From: Bacteroidota bacterium
GTDB lineage: Bacteria; Bacteroidota; Bacteroidia; UKL13-3
DNA length: 64,000 bases
Direction: 5' to 3'
NCBI GenBank assembly: GCA_947477885.1
Contig: CANJUD010000005.1
Span: 1-64,000 of the forward strand
Shown here: positions 1 to 63,786 of the stretch, piece after piece
How positions within the stretch are numbered: the first letter of the stretch is position 1
How the letters are laid out: every line of letters begins with the position of its first letter
Made by a program: the position numbers and the translations under genes
The notes under the pieces: model-generated
What the model was told of the DNA's origin: nothing
The model's database searches: none
Seen by the model: the letters and a program-made list of their open reading frames with translations, nothing else

Positions 1-2721
1 AATTACATATAATCGGTCTTTGGCTGTTTTAATATTGGCAAACAATTGTGGCAATATATCTATCTTCACGGTATTGCTCTGTGCCCCGCAACCGTAGGCA
101 TTTGTTGCACTCACATAATAACTGTTGCTACTATCTACTATAATACTTGGTGTATTAACTGGCCCTGTGTTCCATTTATATTTTACCAGTGGTGGGTAGT
201 TTATATCTTTTTGTTTTGCGGTAAGTATAAAACTATCTCCAAAGCACAAAGGGTTATGGCTTGGGCTATCTATATACACAACAGGTTGTGGAAGTATACG
301 GAACACATTAGTTTTAGTTAATGAATCCATACAACCTTGCCTTGTTAAATATACAAGTTTGGCATTGTAATAACCCGTATCCTGTACAATGAGTTTTAGT
401 TTGTTGCTACTAACTGTATCATATTGTTTGATGATATTGTTTGGATATTCTATCGTCCATCTGCGTTGTTGGATGATACTGTCCCTACCCCCGCTGCTGT
501 CTGTTAGGGTAATGGTGCTATTGCCGCAGCTGGTGAGGTAATCGGGTTTGAAAAGTGGTGAAACTATTTTTCCAACACTGATATATACCGAGTCCTTAAC
601 CGAACAATTATATACATTGGTTACCGTAACACTATAATAGTTTGAGGTTATTGGTTTCAAAAACACAGAAGCGGTCGTATCTCCTGTGCTCCATTTATAA
701 GCACTGCCCCCCGCTACGGTGAGCGTTGTAGAGTCCACACCGCACCAACTGGTTTTACCGCTGATTTTACTTACAGGTACCTGATTAATTTGTATATAAT
801 TAATCTTCTCCAACGAATCTATACAACCCTGCCTGCTTAGTACTATTAACTTCACCGAATAGACTCCCGTATCATTAAACAAAACCGATACATTAGTAGT
901 AGTTCCTGTTGTAATAGTGGTATCAAATCCACTGGGTTTATATGTATGCCAAGTACGGTTTACTATGATACTATCAAATTTTGAAGTATCAGTTAGTATA
1001 ATACTTTTAGCACCGCAGCTTGTTATATAATCTGCACTAAAACTTGCTTTTGGAAAGGTATCTATTATGATATTATATATAGTAGCCACACTATCATAGC
1101 AGCTGCTATTCCAGGCTTTGCAGCTTATGGCATAGTTGCCACTTTTAGTATATAGATGTTGCAACTGCACACTATCTACCAGGTTGGTATCTGTCACATA
1201 TAATAGTGTGTCTGTACCATCTCCCCATGCCAGTTGTACGGTATCGCTATATCTGTAATTAATTTGTGCAGTAATAGTTTGGTAACCGCAATATATCGTT
1301 TTGTTGGTGTTTAAAGAAACAGTAGGTTTAAACTTTATAGTAACACTATCTCCCACCCATTGCATATAACCGCAACTCCCCAGCACACAACCCAATTTTA
1401 CATAATAACTTCCAGGATTTTTGTATTGGTGTACCACACTTTTGCCCACCGCACTATCTCCATCTCCGAAATGCCAAGTATAACTTTTAAAGGCTGTATC
1501 TGTATCCGCCATAAATCTTAAGCTATCACCATCATGCACACACCCATTGGCTCCAGTGACTGCAAAGTGATTATTTATGCGTTTTATGGGGAAAAAGAAA
1601 TCAGGAAAAGATTCAAAAGATAAAGTATCATTTGGACTACAGAAACCATTATACCTAACATTACACCCCAGCCCTTTTATGTCGGGATGTTCTATATAGC
1701 TTAAGCAATGGCTGTTTGCATTTGAATCAGAGAGCCAGAAATACATTTTGTTATCAGGGGCCAATTGTATCCCTTGTGAATGATCATATTGAAATTGCGA
1801 ATTGGTCCCTTTTGGAGTCAAGGAAAATACACTTGCTTGAGAACTTACTATATTTGAATTGTAGGTTTCAAACTGGTTTATTGAATAAATATTATTCACG
1901 ACATTTTTGTCAAATTGACCCAAAAACTGGTATATGATACTGTCGTTTGGAGAAAAGCAATAATATCCTCCTGTTGTTTTTGTAGTATCTGAGAATAATA
2001 GCCTTTCATTGGAGCATTTTCCTGTTTTTGTGTTATAGTTATATATATAAGTTCTATCATCGTTTATCGGTGGCACTTGGCCATATGTCGAAGGTGCGAT
2101 AACATAATTCCCATTATTGGAAAAACGGAAATAAAAATTGGCATTGGTCCCAATCATTTTACTTGGTACCCGGCTAGTGCTGATGCCATTTTTGGTCACC
2201 AAAAACGCGTTTACGGTATAAATATTTGTTTTTATCAATAACCAATAATCAGTATCATTGGCATGTTTTACAAAACCCACGCATAAAATGCCAGAATCAA
2301 TAACCATGTGCACCGTGGTGTCCATATCGCCGCGACCACTATCGCCCCGCATATCTATTTCAAAATAATGGCCGTATTTATGGGTACCGTCATCGCCCCT
2401 AAAATAATAAAATGCTGAGTCGTCACCAGGTTTGGGGATCAACAAATTAAAGTAAGTGGTGCCACTCGGTAAGTGTTTTAACAATTGGTGGTTTGCATTG
2501 TATATATATTGGTTCTGGGTATAAAGTTGCAATTCTCCTTTGCAGTTTGATATTGTTTGGGCACATTCTCTATATGGCCTCGACTTTGGAAATATTGTAG
2601 GTGGGGAAGTATTAAAATTTAAGCCAACGGCCGCAGACGAGGATGTCCAGTTGTTCCCACGCTGAGAAAACAGATTACTATAATTATATATCAATAAAAA
2701 AATCAGCCCAAATATCCTCAT
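1..2721 (-). CDS. Large secreted PKD-repeat surface protein, C-terminus outside the window
   Basis: An uninterrupted minus-strand frame runs from an ATG at 2719-2721 to the left edge (907 codons, no stop), so the 3' end is missing. It begins with a signal peptide (MRIFGLIFLLIYNYSNLFSQ). The N-terminal 350 or so residues look like a repetitive beta-propeller-type region. Two PKD-like modules follow: WHFGDGDS near residue 414 and WGDGTDT near residue 499, each ending in an HxY..G.Y.V pattern. After these come Ig-like cell-adhesion repeats (for example YSVTVTNVYNCS and YYVSATNAYGCG). This is the architecture of large Bacteroidota gliding-associated or T9SS type B cargo proteins, but the sorting domain, if any, lies outside the window. 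It starts 5 nt downstream of the next minus-strand gene, so the two may be co-transcribed. The function is inferred to be cell-surface or adhesive; the substrate is unknown. Confidence 0.85.
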   Translation of the reverse strand, partial: MRIFGLIFLLIYNYSNLFSQRGNNWTSSSAAVGLNFNTSPPTIFPKSRPYRECAQTISNCKGELQLYTQNQYIYNANHQLLKHLPSGTTYFNLLIPKPGDDSAFYYFRGDDGTHKYGHYFEIDMRGDSGRGDMDTTVHMVIDSGILCVGFVKHANDTDYWLLIKTNIYTVNAFLVTKNGISTSRVPSKMIGTNANFYFRFSNNGNYVIAPSTYGQVPPINDDRTYIYNYNTKTGKCSNERLLFSDTTKTTGGYYCFSPNDSIIYQFLGQFDKNVVNNIYSINQFETYNSNIVSSQASVFSLTPKGTNSQFQYDHSQGIQLAPDNKMYFWLSDSNANSHCLSYIEHPDIKGLGCNVRYNGFCSPNDTLSFESFPDFFFPIKRINNHFAVTGANGCVHDGDSLRFMADTDTAFKSYTWHFGDGDSAVGKSVVHQYKNPGSYYVKLGCVLGSCGYMQWVGDSVTIKFKPTVSLNTNKTIYCGYQTITAQINYRYSDTVQLAWGDGTDTLLYVTDTNLVDSVQLQHLYTKSGNYAISCKAWNSSCYDSVATIYNIIIDTFPKASFSADYITSCGAKSIILTDTSKFDSIIVNRTWHTYKPSGFDTTITTGTTTNVSVLFNDTGVYSVKLIVLSRQGCIDSLEKINYIQINQVPVSKISGKTSWCGVDSTTLTVAGGSAYKWSTGDTTASVFLKPITSNYYSVTVTNVYNCSVKDSVYISVGKIVSPLFKPDYLTSCGNSTITLTDSSGGRDSIIQQRRWTIEYPNNIIKQYDTVSSNKLKLIVQDTGYYNAKLVYLTRQGCMDSLTKTNVFRILPQPVVYIDSPSHNPLCFGDSFILTAKQKDINYPPLVKYKWNTGPVNTPSIIVDSSNSYYVSATNAYGCGAQSNTVKIDILPQLFANIKTAKDRLYVI

Positions 2722-2726
2722 AGTGC

Positions 2727-4115
2727 TCAATGTATAATGCTAATTTTATAGACAACCTGTTTCCCCGATTTTAAATCAATTATCCTAAGGGTATATATTC
2801 CTTCAGCTAAGGAAGCAATATTAATAGTTGTTTGGACAGATTGACTCATTGATTTTAAAACAGGTCTACCAGTTTGATCAACAATTTGAATCTGCAAATT
2901 GCTATTAGTTAAATCTTCCATCTGTTCTATTACAAAATTCTCGGATGCAGGGTTGGGATAAATTCTTATATCATTCTTATTTACAGTTGTATTCTGTATA
3001 TTGGTCTCTTCTTTGTTTATATTATAAGTATTCCCACTGCAGTAATAATCTATCGATTGTCCCACACCAGGAGTTCCAAGATTGTATTGCAGAGCGTAAT
3101 TTCCCGAATGAACACGATTGCTGCTAATATATACATCAGTGGTCATTGACTTAAAACTTCTATTGCCACTACCAGCATCTGCATATATTTTAAAAAGAGA
3201 ACCGTTGCTTCCATTCCACCAAGCCACATCCGCATACGCACTGCTGCTGCCAGCATTGCAAGTGTGGCTAGAAAAGTTTGTACAAAATCTGTTTGACCAG
3301 TCCTGCAAATTACCGCCACCACCTGCACTAGTGCCTTGGTCTACTATTGGCCCAATGCCTATAATACCATAGTCGCAGTTTGTTATCTTGTTGCAGTACA
3401 TATCAAGCTGAATGGTATTTGCAGTTGTATTTGTAGTACAGGCCGGGCATGGAGAAGGTGTCCATTCTGCCAAATCAGATGCTATAGAAATACCATAGGT
3501 ACAGTCATCAATATCATTATTGAATATATGGCTCATGTTGCCAGCTCCTATGCTTGAATTATTATAAAACTCAATGCCGCTCACCACATTGCTTATGGAG
3601 CAGTCCTCAATATTAGTCTTTACCCCTTGTTTTACATATATCCCACCTCCGGTATTATTGGTTGAAGTATTGTGGATATATTGGTTTTGAATGTATTGGT
3701 TGGTGGCATTGCCATATATCAAATAAATAGCTTGGTTAAAATTACCTACAAATTCTGATAACCCAGTGCCATCTATATGTAAGTAATTCGGAGTCTCAAT
3801 ATGAACACAGTGGTCATAGTCACCCCAAAATTTACAATCTCTAATAACAAGACCCTCGTGAGCCGCAACGTAAGGGTTAAAATGTATCGGGTCAGCAAAT
3901 AAGCCATATTCTGTATGGCTACCATTTAAGCTATAATAACATTCAAAGCTATCATTTTCAAATGAAACCATTGAAACATACTGGCAATCTGCCTGAGCAA
4001 TAGGAGCTGGTGCATAAGCACCACACAGTGCCTGACCAAAGCTTAGATAAGAAAACTTAGAATTATTGACATAGCCATCCATTTCCCAGCATGATACCAT
4101 TTTGACATGTTTCAT
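2727..4115 (-). CDS. T9SS-sorted beta-helix surface protein, C-terminal fragment (frameshifted)
   Basis: This 462-residue frame has no signal peptide of its own. It opens in the middle of a right-handed parallel beta-helix: repeated rungs of the type GIYVKQGV, NIEDCSIS, GIEFYNNS, SHIFNNDI. It ends with a type A T9SS sorting domain of about 75 residues, containing IYPNPASENFVIEQ and the terminal GIYTLRIIDLKSGKQ. The natural upstream reading continues in this same frame before the ATG (DRCLFENNMKHVKM, a typical rung). That shows the ATG at 4113-4115 is an internal methionine and that the true N-terminal part is the gene at 4112-5566 in another frame. The break is at a TA tract (4140-4154). Read as one gene, the product would be a secreted adhesin-like or enzyme-like beta-helix protein of about 950 residues or slightly more. 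As written it is the 3' half of a disrupted or phase-variable gene. Confidence 0.8.
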   Translation of the reverse strand: MKHVKMVSCWEMDGYVNNSKFSYLSFGQALCGAYAPAPIAQADCQYVSMVSFENDSFECYYSLNGSHTEYGLFADPIHFNPYVAAHEGLVIRDCKFWGDYDHCVHIETPNYLHIDGTGLSEFVGNFNQAIYLIYGNATNQYIQNQYIHNTSTNNTGGGIYVKQGVKTNIEDCSISNVVSGIEFYNNSSIGAGNMSHIFNNDIDDCTYGISIASDLAEWTPSPCPACTTNTTANTIQLDMYCNKITNCDYGIIGIGPIVDQGTSAGGGGNLQDWSNRFCTNFSSHTCNAGSSSAYADVAWWNGSNGSLFKIYADAGSGNRSFKSMTTDVYISSNRVHSGNYALQYNLGTPGVGQSIDYYCSGNTYNINKEETNIQNTTVNKNDIRIYPNPASENFVIEQMEDLTNSNLQIQIVDQTGRPVLKSMSQSVQTTINIASLAEGIYTLRIIDLKSGKQVVYKISIIH

Positions 4116-5566
4116 ATTGTTTTCAAATAAACATCTATCAATATATATATATAACCGTAGTCATGCACATATATTCCAGTCATAGCATCATGCAAATCAG
4201 TATTATACATAATTAGCGAAGCTGAAGTTGCCTGATGGACTGTGGTCACCCATCCAACATTATCCCCAACAACCTCAATTCCTTGCCATGTGTCACATGA
4301 AGCTATGGTGCTATTTAGTATTGATAAATTCCCTCCATTTGTATTCCCTTTGTCGACCACTATTTTAGCACAGGCATCCATGTAGATTTTGCAATCGTCA
4401 AAAGTGACAGTAACATCTGCTGGTATGGTTAAGGTCCCAGAAATATAAATCTCATCGCTAGTGAATGTATAGGGACTAGAAGCAGTTGTAAAGGTGAAAT
4501 TTGTAAAATTTGTAGATGATACCGATTGGCACGCAAAACTTAACGTGTTTGATGAACTTGTGCCACAGATGGAAGTACAAGTTAAAAAGTAATCACCGGG
4601 CAAAGTAGCATAATAAGTATCGCTGTTGGCACCAGGAATAATATTATAGTTCCGGTACCACTGATAACTACTATATACAGGATTTCCCGAAGAAAAAGGT
4701 TGTGCCGATAAGGTTGCAGGCAGCACACTCATGGTATTTGAAACAATAGGTAAATCTGTTTCGAACACAACTGTTATTACAGCCGATGTGCAGGTTGAGG
4801 AGCTAAAAACATCGGTGCAAACATAATAGTAATAAAATGCTTGAGTAGTATTAGAAGTTGGCGATACAGTGACTGAATTAGATGGACTACCGCCATTAAG
4901 TGCAGTGCCGTTTGCTCCATAGGCATCGCATTGGTACCAAGTAACATTGTATCCCGCTGCAGGAGTGTGTGATAGGGTATAGGTAGATCCACAAGTTAAA
5001 TAGCCAGTGGGGTTTGTGCTGCATTGGTTATTGGGGGCTATATATGTAAAACTATTTGATGATGTCCTTGGCCCGCAAGAAGAAGATGCATCAAGTGTAT
5101 ATATCCCAGAAGTAGTAGGTGAAATGTAGTTATTTGTCGCACTTGCTATAGCTGAGCCGTTTAATTTCCATTGAAAATTACTATAACTAGGCAAAGTTGT
5201 AAATGTTTGCAGAGAATAGGTTGGCGGTGTTGAACCATTAGTTGCAATCTCCAAATCATAATCCCATTGTATGGTTATAACCGCAGAAGAGCAAGTAGCT
5301 AAGGTAGAATTGTTAACTTCGTAATATATATAATAAGTAGTTTGATTACCAGTACTTGAAGGTGGCGAGACATTTATGCCAGGTGTCGAAGCTCCACCAT
5401 TTAGCACGTTGGTGTTGCTTCCATAAGCATCGCACTCATACCACCAATAGTCGCAATTCGCATTTAATGGAGAGGCTAAGGTGTATGCTGTGCTGCATGT
5501 AGAATAAGTAACAATTGAGGAACTGCATTGCCCCTTAGTATTGTTAAACGGTATGATCATAAACAA
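4112..5566 (-). CDS. T9SS beta-helix surface protein, N-terminal fragment with Ig-like repeats
   Basis: This is the N-terminal part of the split gene. After a hydrophobic segment (VAFLLLFMIIPFNN) come two similar Ig-like modules of about 165 residues, recognisable by the repeated WWYECDAYGS/TWYQCDAYGA and CSSAVITI/CTSAVITV pairs. The beginning of the parallel beta-helix follows (TLTIPADVTVTFDDC, WQGIEVVGDN). The frame stops just after the TA tract. The only start in this frame at or before the hydrophobic stretch is a TTG at 5564-5566. That start sits inside the signal-peptide core and would leave no basic N-region. The open frame continues upstream as RSHSFYRLGRLLSVAFLLLF without ATG or GTG. 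A good ATG with a promoter-like upstream (5678-5680) is out of frame by one base across a G9 run, so the true start is probably 5680 with an 8-G tract. The 5' boundary is therefore uncertain. Confidence 0.75.
   Translation of the reverse strand: MFMIIPFNNTKGQCSSSIVTYSTCSTAYTLASPLNANCDYWWYECDAYGSNTNVLNGGASTPGINVSPPSSTGNQTTYYIYYEVNNSTLATCSSAVITIQWDYDLEIATNGSTPPTYSLQTFTTLPSYSNFQWKLNGSAIASATNNYISPTTSGIYTLDASSSCGPRTSSNSFTYIAPNNQCSTNPTGYLTCGSTYTLSHTPAAGYNVTWYQCDAYGANGTALNGGSPSNSVTVSPTSNTTQAFYYYYVCTDVFSSSTCTSAVITVVFETDLPIVSNTMSVLPATLSAQPFSSGNPVYSSYQWYRNYNIIPGANSDTYYATLPGDYFLTCTSICGTSSSNTLSFACQSVSSTNFTNFTFTTASSPYTFTSDEIYISGTLTIPADVTVTFDDCKIYMDACAKIVVDKGNTNGGNLSILNSTIASCDTWQGIEVVGDNVGWVTTVHQATSASLIMYNTDLHDAMTGIYVHDYGYIYILIDVYLKTI
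4140..4154. repeat. TA microsatellite causing the frameshift
   Basis: A run of alternating A and T (13-15 nt) lies exactly where the beta-helix reading frame breaks. Removing one TA unit joins HDYGYIYI directly to DRCLFENN and restores a continuous protein. Such tracts are prone to slippage, so it may be a biological on/off switch, a fixed mutation, or a sequencing indel. Confidence 0.85.
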
Positions 5567-5640
5567 TAGCAGAAAGGCAACAGATAATAACCTCCCAAGC
5601 CTATAAAAGGAATGAGAGCGAAAGGTTAAAGTTTGGGAAA

Positions 5641-5663
5641 CCCCTACTGATGTAGGGGGGGGG
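5641..5663. repeat. CCCCTAC/GTAGGGG hairpin merging into a G9 homopolymer
   Basis: CCCCTAC (5641-5647), a TGAT loop and GTAGGGG (5652-5658) form a perfect 7-bp stem. The G run extends to nine bases (5655-5663). It lies between a plausible ATG (5678-5680, minus strand) and the signal peptide of the beta-helix gene. With eight Gs that ATG would be in frame with the signal peptide. Confidence 0.7.
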
Positions 5664-5712
5664 TAGTACTTTGTGTTTCATAGGGTTGTATATTTAGGTT
5701 GTTTTAGGAAAG

Positions 5713-19493: not shown

Positions 19494-21122
19494 ATGAAAG
19501 CTTTTATACTCACTCTATTTTTAGTTCTAGGTTCATTATACAATTATGCACAAACTCCATGGCAGGTAAATGTTGATTCGCTTCGCATGTTTCCATCAGG
19601 AGGTTTTATTGAAAATTATGATTATGGTTTGACACTAACAGCATACGATTGGAATTTCTCAGGAGTCAAAAGATATTTAATTAAAACGGATTCGAGAGGA
19701 AAAGAAATGTATAAGCGTTTTTTTAAATATGAATATCCTGTCGGAAATAAGAATGGAATTGCAAGTGTAGGTAATTTGATTGCAACAAAAGATGGTGGAA
19801 TATTAGCATGTGGTAATCTATCTGATGACGGAGATACGTCAGCTAGTGCCTTTGTTTCTAAGCTTAACCCTTGCGGGGAAGTTGCATGGAGTTACGTTTT
19901 CGACGATAAGACTTTTGGTGGTCCGAATAAATGGGATTTTATTATATCAGCAGCCGAACTATCTAATGGAAATTTATTATTACTGGGGCAGTTCTCAGAT
20001 AATTTTATCGCATTAACTATTAGCCAAACTGGTACAATATTGAATCAGTTTACCATTGAAAAATCAAGCGATAGTTGGAATGCGAATATCTATAGAACTG
20101 CAAATGGAGAATATTTGATTGCGGGGAGTAAAGACACTCATCCAAAAAATGATAGTACAGCATATACTGTTAGAAGTCTCTTATTGAGGATAGATAGTTT
20201 GGGCGATTTGATATGCTATAATACTTATGGGCATGCTGAAGATTATGCTTCAGTGGCGTTTTCACTGGCGAGCTATGAGGAATCAACCAATAATATATAC
20301 ATGTATGGAATAGGAAATAAAGCTAGTTCTTTTGGGAGTATATATTTAAAAAAATGTGACCAAGTAGGCAATGAACTTTGGCACAAGAATTTGGCACAAA
20401 AACCACAAGGGAAAGTTCAATATTTTGAAGAACCTAACGAAATTTTTAAATTAAAAGATAAAAATATGCTACTGTTAGAAGATGCTACTTTTGCAAAGTA
20501 CTATGCATTAAGTTTTGCTAGAATGATAAAAGTAGATACCAATGGAAATGTAATAGATAGCGTAACTTTGGGTGACAGTGCCAACTTTTATAAAATTACC
20601 AATGGTATTCAAACTCATGATAGCAATATAGTAGTTTTGTATTGTTATTATAATACAAGTTATACTAAAGGATATATACACCTAAGAAAGTTTGATTACA
20701 ATTTGAAACAACTACAAATGGATACAATAAACTATATATATGATAGCCTTTGTCCACATGCTGTAAGAACGGACGACATAGATTTGAGCAATTCAAAATG
20801 GATTACTTTTATTCAGGACTCAAATAAAATATACAAAACTCCCAATTACTGTAATGCTATTACTGCCATATCGGCTATAGTAGACAGACCTCAAATACAA
20901 ATATGGCCAAACCCATTTGGTAATTGGATAAAAGTTAATGTAATACAAAACAAAGATATAAATACCGCAGAGTTATATGATATAGCAGGTAAACTTATGT
21001 GGAGTGGGAGGATGAGTGCAAATGGACTTATAGAAACAGGTCAATTAACATCAGGCATATATATATTATCATTATATAATAGCAATGGAGATAAATGGAA
21101 TGCGAAGGTGGTGAAGGAGTAA
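19494..21122 (+). CDS. Secreted repeat protein with type A T9SS sorting domain
   Basis: 542 residues. A signal peptide (MKAFILTLFLVLGSLYNYAQ) precedes repeats in which a statement-like beta-blade (YLIKTDSRGKEMYKRFF, VSKLNPCGEVAWSYVF, LLRIDSLGDLICYNTYG, MIKVDTNGNVIDSV) recurs every 50-70 residues. This pattern is typical of beta-propeller (delta-60/SBBP-like) surface proteins. The C-terminus is a type A T9SS sorting domain (IQIWPNPFGNWIKVNV, LTSGIYILSLYNSNGD). The start at 19494 is chosen for the signal peptide; 20 upstream codons are open but unlikely. The binding target or function is unknown. Confidence 0.85.
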   Translation: MKAFILTLFLVLGSLYNYAQTPWQVNVDSLRMFPSGGFIENYDYGLTLTAYDWNFSGVKRYLIKTDSRGKEMYKRFFKYEYPVGNKNGIASVGNLIATKDGGILACGNLSDDGDTSASAFVSKLNPCGEVAWSYVFDDKTFGGPNKWDFIISAAELSNGNLLLLGQFSDNFIALTISQTGTILNQFTIEKSSDSWNANIYRTANGEYLIAGSKDTHPKNDSTAYTVRSLLLRIDSLGDLICYNTYGHAEDYASVAFSLASYEESTNNIYMYGIGNKASSFGSIYLKKCDQVGNELWHKNLAQKPQGKVQYFEEPNEIFKLKDKNMLLLEDATFAKYYALSFARMIKVDTNGNVIDSVTLGDSANFYKITNGIQTHDSNIVVLYCYYNTSYTKGYIHLRKFDYNLKQLQMDTINYIYDSLCPHAVRTDDIDLSNSKWITFIQDSNKIYKTPNYCNAITAISAIVDRPQIQIWPNPFGNWIKVNVIQNKDINTAELYDIAGKLMWSGRMSANGLIETGQLTSGIYILSLYNSNGDKWNAKVVKE

Positions 21123-21140
21123 ACTATATTATATAATTCC

Positions 21141-21605
21141 CTACCTCTTCAACCTCACCTCCCCATTCTCCAAAGCAATCCCAATTTCAATCCAGGCAAC
21201 CTGCAATTTTTCTTTGTTAATCCAGGCTATAATAATCAATCTATCCTCACCCGTTTTTTTGTCTTTGGCTTTTATGGAGGTGGCTACTATCATGGGTTCG
21301 CCTTGGTAGAAGGCAGGTAAGCGTTTGCCATCCATGTCGCCATTTTCAAAAAAGTATTTGTAGAATCCTGTTCCTGTAATACTATCATAAGTGAGATTGG
21401 TATCAGGGATGCGGGTTTTTGTTATCATATCTATATATTCGAAATGATCCACTTCTTTGGGTTTGCCCACCCATATTGTATCCCCAATATTCATTTCTAT
21501 TTTCATAGTTTGGGCTGGGGCGGTTTTTTTTGTCTGTGCGTTTGCTGAAGATATATATATAATACCTACGAGTATAATTAGGAAATGTTTTATATAATGT
21601 TTCAT
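21141..21605 (-). CDS. Small secreted protein of unknown function
   Basis: 154 residues with a signal peptide (MKHYIKHFLIILVGIIYISS, cleaved after ANAQ). The mature part has motifs such as MNIGDTIWVGKPKEVDHFEY and EGPMI-like turns, but matches no family I recognise. It is convergent with the T9SS cargo gene at 19494-21122: the two stops are 18 nt apart. It lies downstream of the lolD-like gene with an inverted repeat in the 76-nt gap. The start is placed at 21605 because upstream in-frame codons fall within that repeat. Confidence 0.7.
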   Translation of the reverse strand: MKHYIKHFLIILVGIIYISSANAQTKKTAPAQTMKIEMNIGDTIWVGKPKEVDHFEYIDMITKTRIPDTNLTYDSITGTGFYKYFFENGDMDGKRLPAFYQGEPMIVATSIKAKDKKTGEDRLIIIAWINKEKLQVAWIEIGIALENGEVRLKR

Positions 21606-21626
21606 ATTTGTACACGGTGTGCGTAT

Positions 21627-21672
21627 ATTCGACGACTCAGCCACGCCTGTGCGTTCGCAGAGTCGTCGAATC
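21627..21672. repeat. ATTCGACGACTC inverted repeat, copy 2
   Basis: Arms ATTCGACGACTC (21627-21638) and GAGTCGTCGAAT (21660-21671) enclose a CG-rich loop. The family also has copies at 18358-18404 and 22352-22398. It separates the lolD-like gene from the small secreted protein. Confidence 0.85.
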
Positions 21673-21681
21673 AGCCCTGCG

Positions 21682-22335
21682 TTACCCAACAATCATTCCA
21701 TCTTTAATATGCAATGTCCTATCAGTCTTACTCGCTAGGCTTTCATTATGGGTTACAATCAGGAATGTTTGTCCGGTTTTGTCACGCAAATCTAGAAACA
21801 AATCGTGAAGTTCGGTAGCATTTTTGGTGTCGAGGTTGCCGGTGGGTTCGTCGGCAAATACTACGGCGGGATCGTTTATTAAGGCACGAGCTACTGCTAC
21901 ACGCTGTTGTTCGCCGCCTGATAGTTCACTGGGTTTGTGTTGTAACCTATGTCCGAGTGAAAGTTGTTCTAATATTTTTCCTGCTTTTGCAAGTGCTTCT
22001 TTTTTGCTAAGTCCGGCAAGCATGGCTGGGATGGCAGCATTTTCAGCAGCAGTAAATTCGGGCATCAGTTGGTGAAACTGAAACACAAAACCAATTTTAC
22101 TGTTTCTAAATTTATCTAATTTTCTTCCTTTTAATATATGTGCATCCACACCATCAATACTAAAACTTCCACCATCGGTAGGCATCAGTGTTCCCAATAT
22201 ATGTAATAGGGTAGATTTGCCCGCACCCGATGCACCTATGATAGATACCATCTCGCTCTTACGTACATGCACATCCACGCCACGCAGCACTTCTATCTGC
22301 CCGAATTTTTTGGTAATGTTGGTTGCTTTTATCAT
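21682..22335 (-). CDS. lolD: LolD-like ABC transporter ATP-binding protein
   Basis: 217 residues. It shows a Walker A (GASGAGKSTLL), Q-loop (FVFQFHQLMPEFTAAEN), signature (LSGGEQQRVAVARAL), Walker B (AVVFADEPTGNLD) and H-loop (LIVTHN). The FQFHQLMPEFTAAEN segment and overall length fit the LolD/MacB branch, which powers lipoprotein release to the outer membrane or related mechanotransmission exporters. No permease gene is next to it. In Bacteroidota lolD is often separate from lolCE. Hence the LolD assignment is by similarity, and another MacB-like role is possible. Confidence 0.85.
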   Translation of the reverse strand: MIKATNITKKFGQIEVLRGVDVHVRKSEMVSIIGASGAGKSTLLHILGTLMPTDGGSFSIDGVDAHILKGRKLDKFRNSKIGFVFQFHQLMPEFTAAENAAIPAMLAGLSKKEALAKAGKILEQLSLGHRLQHKPSELSGGEQQRVAVARALINDPAVVFADEPTGNLDTKNATELHDLFLDLRDKTGQTFLIVTHNESLASKTDRTLHIKDGMIVG

Positions 22336-26871: not shown

Positions 26872-27435
26872 TCAGTAATCAGTGGCTGACGCCTGATTAT
26901 TCTATTATACATTTCCGTCTGGCTCCAATCGAGGGGGTTTTTCTGCCGAATGGCACTGACTACTGACTACTGACTACTGACTACTGACTACTGACCACTG
27001 ACAACTGTCTACTGACCACTGACCACTGACTACTGACTACTGACTACTGACTACTGACCACTGTCTACTGACCACTGACCACTGACCACTGACTACTGAC
27101 TACTGACCACTGTCTGCTGACTACTGACTACTGTCTACTGACTACTGACCACTGTCTACTGAATACTGTTTACTGACTACTGTCTACTGTCTACTGACTA
27201 CTGTCTACTGACTACTGTCTACTGACCACTGTCTACTGACTACTGACTACTGACCACTGACTACTGACCACTGACCACTGACTACTGACTACTGTCTACT
27301 GACTACTGACCACTGTCTACTGACTACTGACTACTGACTACTGACTACTGACCACTGTCTACTGAATACTGTTTACTGACTACTGTCTACTGACTACTGA
27401 CTACTGTCTACTGACTACTGTTTACTGACCACTGA
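26857..27435. repeat. Heptanucleotide repeat element with a 0.5-kb array (copy 1)
   Basis: A left arm of AGTCAGT-type heptamers (26857-26883) is followed by the core GCTGACGCC, split by a 51-nt insertion (26894-26944), then GCCGAATGGCAC. A right array of about 70 heptamers (CTGACTA, CTGACCA, CTGTCTA, CTGTTTA variants) then runs to about 27435. The right array is the reverse complement of the left arm. It fills the space between two convergent genes and supplies the 3' ends of both. Confidence 0.95.
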
Positions 27436-32975: not shown

Positions 32976-33054
32976 TAGTCAGTGGTCAGTAAACAGTAGT
33001 CAGTGCCATTCGGCGTGAGCTAACTGACTACTGACTACTGTTTACTGACCACTG
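32974..33054. repeat. Heptanucleotide repeat element, copy 2
   Basis: A left arm (AGTAGTCAGTGGTCAGT onward), core TGCCATTCGGCGTGAGC and a right arm that reverse-complements the left form a long hairpin. It fills the gap between the second MuiA-like gene and hemW. Confidence 0.9.
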
Positions 33055-33056
33055 AA

Positions 33057-60195: not shown

Positions 60196-60283
60196 TCGTT
60201 AGTATTAAGGAATAAAGGGTTAGGGCCATTAGGAGACAATAAGGCGTCAGCCACTGACTACTGATTACTGACCACTGTGTACT
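60196..60283. repeat. Heptad-armed repeat element, copy 4
   Basis: The left arm TTAGTATTAAGGAATAAAGG, core GGCGTCAGCC and right arm ACTGACTACTGATTACTGAC. It lies between the convergent lptD and cytochrome genes. Confidence 0.8.
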
Positions 60284-62168: not shown

Positions 62169-63038
62169 ATGAAATCACTCAAATATTTTTCAGTTTTCAC
62201 AGCTTCAACTTTATTGCTTTTTGCCGCATGTAAAAGTGATACCGTTAAAGAAATAAGCCAAGAAACAAAAGTAACTAAGGAGCCTGAAAAGGAAATTGCA
62301 AAATCAACTATTATAGAAGAAAACATTACTTATACTGCTGATAATACTCCCCTCGATGGATTTGTAGCTTATGATAGTTCTATTAAAACCAAACGCCCCG
62401 TGGTGCTAGTAATACACGAATGGTGGGGCTTGAACGAGTATCCAAAAATCCGTGCAAGGCAATTAGCAGCATTAGGATATCTAGCTATTGCTGTCGATTT
62501 ATATGGTAATCATAAAGTAGCTGAAGATCCTGCGGATGCTGGCAAGCTCGCCAAACCAATTTATGCAAATCCTAAAATGGCCAAGAAAAGATTTGACGCA
62601 GCAATGGCCAAAATTAAAACATATCCTGTTGCCGATATCACGCAAATGGCAGCGATAGGTTATTGTTTTGGCGGCGCCATGGCACTAAACTTTGCCCGTT
62701 TGGGTGAGAGTGAACTTAAAGGTATTGTTAGTTTTCATGGTAATCTTTCAGGTGTTCCCATCACCAAAAGTATACTCAAAACTAAAGTTCTGGTTTGTAA
62801 TGGCGAAGCTGATATATATGTTAACCCCGATGAAATTAGTAACTTCAAAAAGCAAATGGATTCCATTAAGGCAGATTACACATTTAAGTCGTATCCCAAT
62901 GCAACGCACGCTTTCACCAACCCCGCCTCAACCGAAGTAGGTAAAAAGTATGATATACATATTGAGTACAATGAGCCCGCTGATAAAGCATCGTGGAATG
63001 ATATGAAAACTTTTTTTGCAACAATATTTAAGAAATAG
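62169..63038 (+). CDS. Dienelactone hydrolase-family lipoprotein
   Basis: 289 residues. A lipobox-like LLLFAAC indicates membrane anchoring. The alpha/beta-hydrolase domain shows VLVIHEWWGLNEYPKIRA, the nucleophile Cys in AIGYCFGGAMALNFA (as in dienelactone hydrolases), an acid in NGEADIYVNP and His in YPNATHAFTNP. The true substrate is unknown: family members hydrolyse dienelactones or other lactones and esters. It stands alone, between two heptad elements. Confidence 0.9.
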   Translation: MKSLKYFSVFTASTLLLFAACKSDTVKEISQETKVTKEPEKEIAKSTIIEENITYTADNTPLDGFVAYDSSIKTKRPVVLVIHEWWGLNEYPKIRARQLAALGYLAIAVDLYGNHKVAEDPADAGKLAKPIYANPKMAKKRFDAAMAKIKTYPVADITQMAAIGYCFGGAMALNFARLGESELKGIVSFHGNLSGVPITKSILKTKVLVCNGEADIYVNPDEISNFKKQMDSIKADYTFKSYPNATHAFTNPASTEVGKKYDIHIEYNEPADKASWNDMKTFFATIFKK

Positions 63039-63118
63039 TAAACAGTAGTCAGTAATCAGTAGTCAGTAATCAGTTGCTGACGCCGAATGGCACTGATTAC
63101 TGACTACTGATCACTAAT
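63037..63118. repeat. Heptanucleotide repeat element, copy 5
   Basis: AGTAGTCAGTAATCAGT-type left arm, core GCTGACGCCGAATGGCAC and a right arm ACTGATTACTGACTACTGAT form a long hairpin between two plus-strand genes. Confidence 0.92.
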
Positions 63119-63638: not shown

Positions 63639-63786
63639 TCAGTAGTCAGTAATCAGTGCCATGCGGCGTCAGCCACTAACTACTAACTACTGTTTACTGA
63701 CCACTAACTAATGTATACTGACTACTGTTTACTGACTACTGACTACTGACTACTGTTTACTGACTACTGTTTACTGACTACTAATT
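63627..63786. repeat. Heptanucleotide repeat element, copy 6, with long right array
   Basis: AGTAGTCAGTAGTCAGTAAT-type left arm, core TGCCATGCGGCGTCAGCC, and a right array of about 15 heptamers (CTAACTA, CTGTTTA, CTGACTA). It lies between two convergent genes and contributes the 3' end of the left one. Confidence 0.92.

Follow-up and report, generated by a model that had tools for sequence, protein, structure and literature searches.

A run of nine cytosines close to the start codon puts a large T9SS cargo gene of the window (the whole 64,000-nt stretch of Bacteroidota DNA analysed here) out of frame, and a start-proximal C-run is found at the same site in seven genes, this one and six relatives, in three species of the genus. 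We tentatively propose that the 5' poly-C run may be a reversible contingency locus that controls a T9SS cargo, and that a further break of the window gene at a TA tract is a second hit; we favour this reading while regarding it as somewhat short of probable. Irreversible decay is nearly as likely as a poly-C switch, and the C-run looks like either an on/off switch or a gene-loss hot spot.

The window gene is read from the minus strand and falls into two frames. Frame A (4115..5677, minus strand; 521 codons), which contains Ig-like/cysteine-containing repeats but in which a Pfam search found zero families above the cut-off, ends at a TGA stop at 4114-4112, and frame B (2730..4160, minus strand; 477 codons), the downstream half of the cargo, ends at a stop at 2729-2727. 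Provided that both frames are coding, a break outside their 46-nt overlap is excluded. The overlap encloses an alternating TA tract (ATATATATATATA; 4141..4153, minus strand; 13 nt), which is the point where the two frames part and accounts for 13 of the 46 possible break positions; by hand calculation, the chance of a TA run of at least 13 nt in a given 46-nt overlap is about 5e-4. Removal of one TA unit gives the junction DAMTGIYVHDYGYIYI-DRCLFENNMKHV, which spans 28 residues, and the residues between the two conserved flanking marks number exactly 28 in nine homologs and 29 in one (homologs from the window genome and three other genomes). The first-pass annotation had placed the break of this gene at the TA tract and had stated that one TA fewer joins the frames; the short overlap, the tract inside it and the agreement of the restored spacing with that of the homologs confirm both statements, while the tract limits given there, 4140-4154, are corrected to 4141-4153.

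Frame B carries the sorting domain that had been ascribed to it, a T9SS type A C-terminal sorting domain at 2769..2963 (minus strand; PF18962, 5e-13; TIGR04183, 2.8e-10), and the gene for SprA of the T9SS is present in the genome at full length (2461 bits). In having a sorting domain above the cut-off and a SprA gene in the genome, the protein is like known T9SS type A cargo (Por_Secre_tail, TIGR04183), but its body family differs in having no Pfam or NCBIfam name. The beta-helix that had been assigned to the body found no support: the beta-helix Pfam families matched neither the window halves nor the intact homologs, the single-sequence structure model of the body had a pLDDT of 38, and PDB profile matches were essentially limited to sorting domains. 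A scan of the genome contigs for named relatives returned only a distant Flavobacteriaceae MAG with 25% identity, and a plasmid match for the locus was not found.

Upstream of 5566 the coding frame stays open, with no start codon, until a stop just above 5677, and at its upstream limit ATGAAACACAAAGTACTA is followed by the C9 run (5681-5655). The proposed start ATG is at 5679..5681 (minus strand; MKHKVLPPP..., MKNNKLAPP or MKNNMLPPP in homologs), and the poly-C run, at 5655..5663 (minus strand; codons 7-9), takes it out of the coding frame. The gene extent proposed earlier, 2727-5566, is thus right at the stop end and too short at the 5' end, as the gene reaches upstream to the ATG at 5681. 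The frame of the ATG ends after 26 codons, giving a product of 26 aa, and the body frame is offset from it by one base; the copy is OFF as assembled with C9, and C8 would be in frame. A putative signal-peptide-like segment (FYRLGRLLSVAFLLLFMIIPFNNTKGQ; 5528..5608, minus strand), judged by alignment and by eye, lies in frame A. Its hydrophobic core is conserved across homologs and would be separated from the ATG by the frameshift, and between the C-run and this core there is zero in-frame ATG, GTG or TTG. Since the start is off-frame at the C9 run, TA slippage alone cannot turn the window gene on, and the TA tract was rejected as the sole switch. What stands of the earlier suggestion that TA slippage switches secretion is the break at the tract and the location of the sorting domain in the lost frame; the sufficiency of the TA step does not stand.

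The seven genes share one layout, in which ATGAAAAACAACAAGTTAG is followed by the C-run and a conserved putative signal peptide (SKFLLKTK...YRFGRLL). In addition to C9 in the window gene, the run is C8 in L043, C5 in L044 and C5TC4 in L046, three paralogs of the window genome, C5AC3 in L132 and C8 in L133 of a second species, and C11 in L134 of a third, all lengths being read from assembled sequence with one assembly per species. L046 is the only gene in frame; the other six (five of the six besides the window gene) are OFF, and the ATG-to-body offsets, 0 in one gene, +1 in four and +2 in two, cover all three phases. No in-frame ATG, GTG or TTG occurs from the run to the signal core in five of the six OFF genes, and the bodies of L132 and L133, although OFF, contain no other interruption over 889 and 905 codons, respectively. 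The members that are without the cassette (L042, L130, L131 and L135) have an ordinary ATG start and are intact. As expected of contingency genes, a repeat tract lies inside or near the reading frame, gain or loss of a unit shifts the frame, and length and phase differ between homologs. A separate observation concerns L045 (contig C15:442-2790), which has ATA at the start position where its paralog L042 has ATG, the rest of the gene being intact.

Based on these features, we propose that the genes encode a small family of surface proteins secreted by the T9SS, each with a 5' cassette that would comprise a promoter region, the ATG, the C-run (codons 6-10) and the signal peptide. Strand slippage would add or remove C and thereby set whether the start codon shares a frame with the signal peptide and body; every copy would be ON in one of the three phases and OFF in the others. 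Changes in C-run length would be frequent and reversible, and cells may differ as to which cargo copy gets secreted. The body of an OFF copy would be free of selection and gather second hits, and the TA break at 4141-4153 would be such a second slippage event rather than the main switch.

A second break in the body is found in four of the six OFF genes: at the TA tract in the window gene, as an approximately 470-nt deletion in L043, at G6 in L044 and at G4 in L134. None of the six other genes has one, which gives p of about 0.03 in a Fisher test by hand on small numbers of related genes. The confinement of body breaks to OFF copies fits the idea that the start C-run determines which copies selection acts on. 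A frame-break scan over 304 kb of other loci overlooked the known L043 and L044 breaks and was not used as a number.

The same second breaks also speak for irreversible decay, a serious possibility in which an expendable, expanded cargo family loses copies and the breaks at the C-run and the TA tract are mutations of pseudogenes, located in the fastest-mutating simple repeats. That only one of seven C-run genes is ON, with four of the six OFF genes carrying a further body break, also fits simple decay, as does a TA tract that is unique to the window gene and missing at that site in the homologs. The runs of L044 (C5) and L132 (C5AC3), short and interrupted, respectively, would be poor slippage substrates and yet both genes are OFF, which counts against a switch and, together with the frequent second breaks, favours decay. 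Likewise, length variation within a species was not observed in the single assembly of each, and the ATG of the window gene is without the A at -3 that is favoured in Bacteroidetes (PMC6847099); these points and the lack of poly-C/G enrichment count against a switch. Decay alone, however, does not predict a C-run kept in place with differing lengths in three species and in front of different bodies, nor is it easily reconciled with OFF bodies that are open for hundreds of codons save for single breaks; silencing that is recent or reversible is favoured by the mixture of phases and by the long bodies that stay open behind off-frame starts.

The partner of the window gene is a PKD-type T9SS cargo gene (MRIFGLIFLL..QRGNNW..; 1..2721, minus strand), which starts 5 nt past the stop of the cargo gene and is truncated where the contig ends, and this pairing with a PKD-type partner recurs behind every paralog in the window genome. 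L034/L190 (contig C9, about 129811), a member of the PKD-type T9SS cargo family that follows each paralog, is itself split exactly at a 13-nt TA run, with a downstream frame of 1009 codons. Its break reads QYIYIMPKTNY* versus QYIYNAQNQLL, the homologs beside the window gene and in L043 reading QYIYN and NYIYN, and the homologs have one TA unit fewer at the break. Comparison with homologs thus suggests that two cargo-type genes of the genome were broken by slippage of one TA unit. In L191 (contig C12, about 19941-21813), an unrelated, possibly transposase-like N-terminus (MKKDILDFKSMNYLEFTDRF...) continues in frame into the tail of a PKD-type cargo.

Sequencing or assembly error in the repeats, or collapsed strain variants, could also give such breaks, given that homopolymers are a classic site of error and that the window begins at a contig end within the partner gene. 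We consider this explanation improbable. The runs of at least eight C/G within long genes, including mutS, are in frame, as are the TA runs of at least 13 nt within long genes except those of the window gene and the related L034/L190; these in-frame control tracts weaken the case for general assembly noise, and random assembly error would have had to pick both of the cargo-type genes broken at TA. The 64-kb window has no further clear frame break, and off-frame C-runs are present in three separate assemblies.

TA runs of at least 13 nt, of which there are 26 in the 3.1-Mb genome, are about 20 times commoner than under a first-order Markov model of the window (1.25 expected). A genome-wide enrichment of poly-C, sought as support for contingency loci, was not found, with 24 C/G runs of at least eight observed versus 26 expected; because of this, the case for the C-run lies in its occurrence at one site, with differing lengths, in seven genes rather than in how long it is. 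Several other repeats were observed. The in-frame run in mutS (L125; C10:103066) consists of eight G/C at about codon 443 of the open frame, where slippage could yield a mutator. In L017, L019, L036, L038 and L039, TA runs of at least 13 nt are near the gene starts and in frame, encode YIYI-type residues in signal-peptide-like segments and could slip. Three TA runs of exactly 29 nt are outside long genes (L023, C2:7045; L025, C2:297344; L035, C10:84443), and similar CTCCCACAAGG- or CTGCCACAAGG-like sequence flanks some of these and also the 17-nt run of L020, as though they belonged to a repeated element. The heptamer ACTGACT and its variants form arrays of up to 69 copies in the window (26955-27435, 33023-33055, 60253-60277, 63037-63110 and 63675-63782), reminiscent of the TAACTGA heptamer repeats of Beggiatoaceae, Cyanobacteria and some Bacteroidetes (PMC4679880).

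C tracts are prone to slippage, and some full-length protein might arise at the C-run (and the TA tract) by ribosomal frameshifting or by slippage during transcription, or re-initiation at the ATG at 4115 might make the downstream half. All four genes with two breaks have the start ATG in the frame of the C-terminal half and the middle shifted, an arrangement with a chance of 1 in 16, and the ATG of the downstream frame at 4115 overlaps the TGA of frame A (ATGA, 4112-4115), making re-initiation formally possible. Such recoding is nevertheless very unlikely. The Met at 4115 is unconserved among homologs and a re-initiated product would be without the signal peptide, the run is too short in two genes, and the shift required varies, being +1 in four genes and +2 in two. 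A programmed frameshift gene would show the same direction of shift at a conserved site; the seven genes have offsets of 0, +1 and +2. GeneTack sorts frame transitions into phase variation, recoding, coupling and pseudogenes (PMC3711429).

The upstream non-coding and 5' coding DNA of L043, L044 and L046 is 78-85% identical. The bodies of L046 and L135 share 73% identity over 775 residues, and the cassette is present in L046 only; L132 and L133 are 76% identical over their first 41 residues, with bodies no nearer to each other than to other members, and the 66% identity between L044 and L133 is limited to 47 residues. Judged by these identities, the C-run is part of a promoter-plus-signal-peptide cassette that is swapped among divergent bodies. 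A more doubtful idea is that this cassette (promoter, start codon, hypermutable C-run and signal peptide) is mobile, being handed from one divergent T9SS cargo body to another and conferring phase variation on each. The start pattern was absent from all others of the 64 family genomes searched. When ATG followed by C7 within 5-30 nt was counted against a reversed-pattern control, genome G002 had 11 versus 1, while G000 (7 versus 8) and G001 (6 versus 7) were near the control.

Homopolymer tracts at the 5' ends of genes, mainly poly-A and poly-T, have been described as on/off devices across prokaryotes, including those of inlA, swrA and flhA (PMC2831843). The proposed switch is like these in that the tract is near the coding start and a frameshift ends translation early in a potentially reversible way, but it differs in being poly-C, whereas the enriched tracts there are poly-A/poly-T, and in belonging to an exchangeable secretion cassette of T9SS cargo known from assembled sequence. 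The oipA gene of Helicobacter pylori is switched by a 5' CT repeat (PMC10564699); there, too, a repeat in the first codons sets the frame of the signal peptide and of a surface protein, but the protein is an outer-membrane barrel not homologous to the T9SS cargo behind the mononucleotide C-run. The phase-variable genes of Campylobacter jejuni have G/C runs of at least seven inside reading frames (PMC4965091), as here; unlike here, where assembled sequences are compared, reversible switching was measured in these contingency loci. No published case of a slippage switch of T9SS cargo was found by full-text literature searches of incomplete coverage.

If the family is decaying, simple repeats are where the first breaks of an expanded cargo family occur, and long open reading frames that have no start would still merit a check for an upstream C-run. 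If the poly-C run is a switch, it would account for the truncated or broken models that gene callers give for these large secreted proteins. In Bacteroidota, DNA inversion is the usual explanation of surface switching, and C-run slippage controlling T9SS cargo would be a second route to it; a mobile C-run cassette, if real, would amount to a combinatorial surface-switching system in a Bacteroidota-type lineage.
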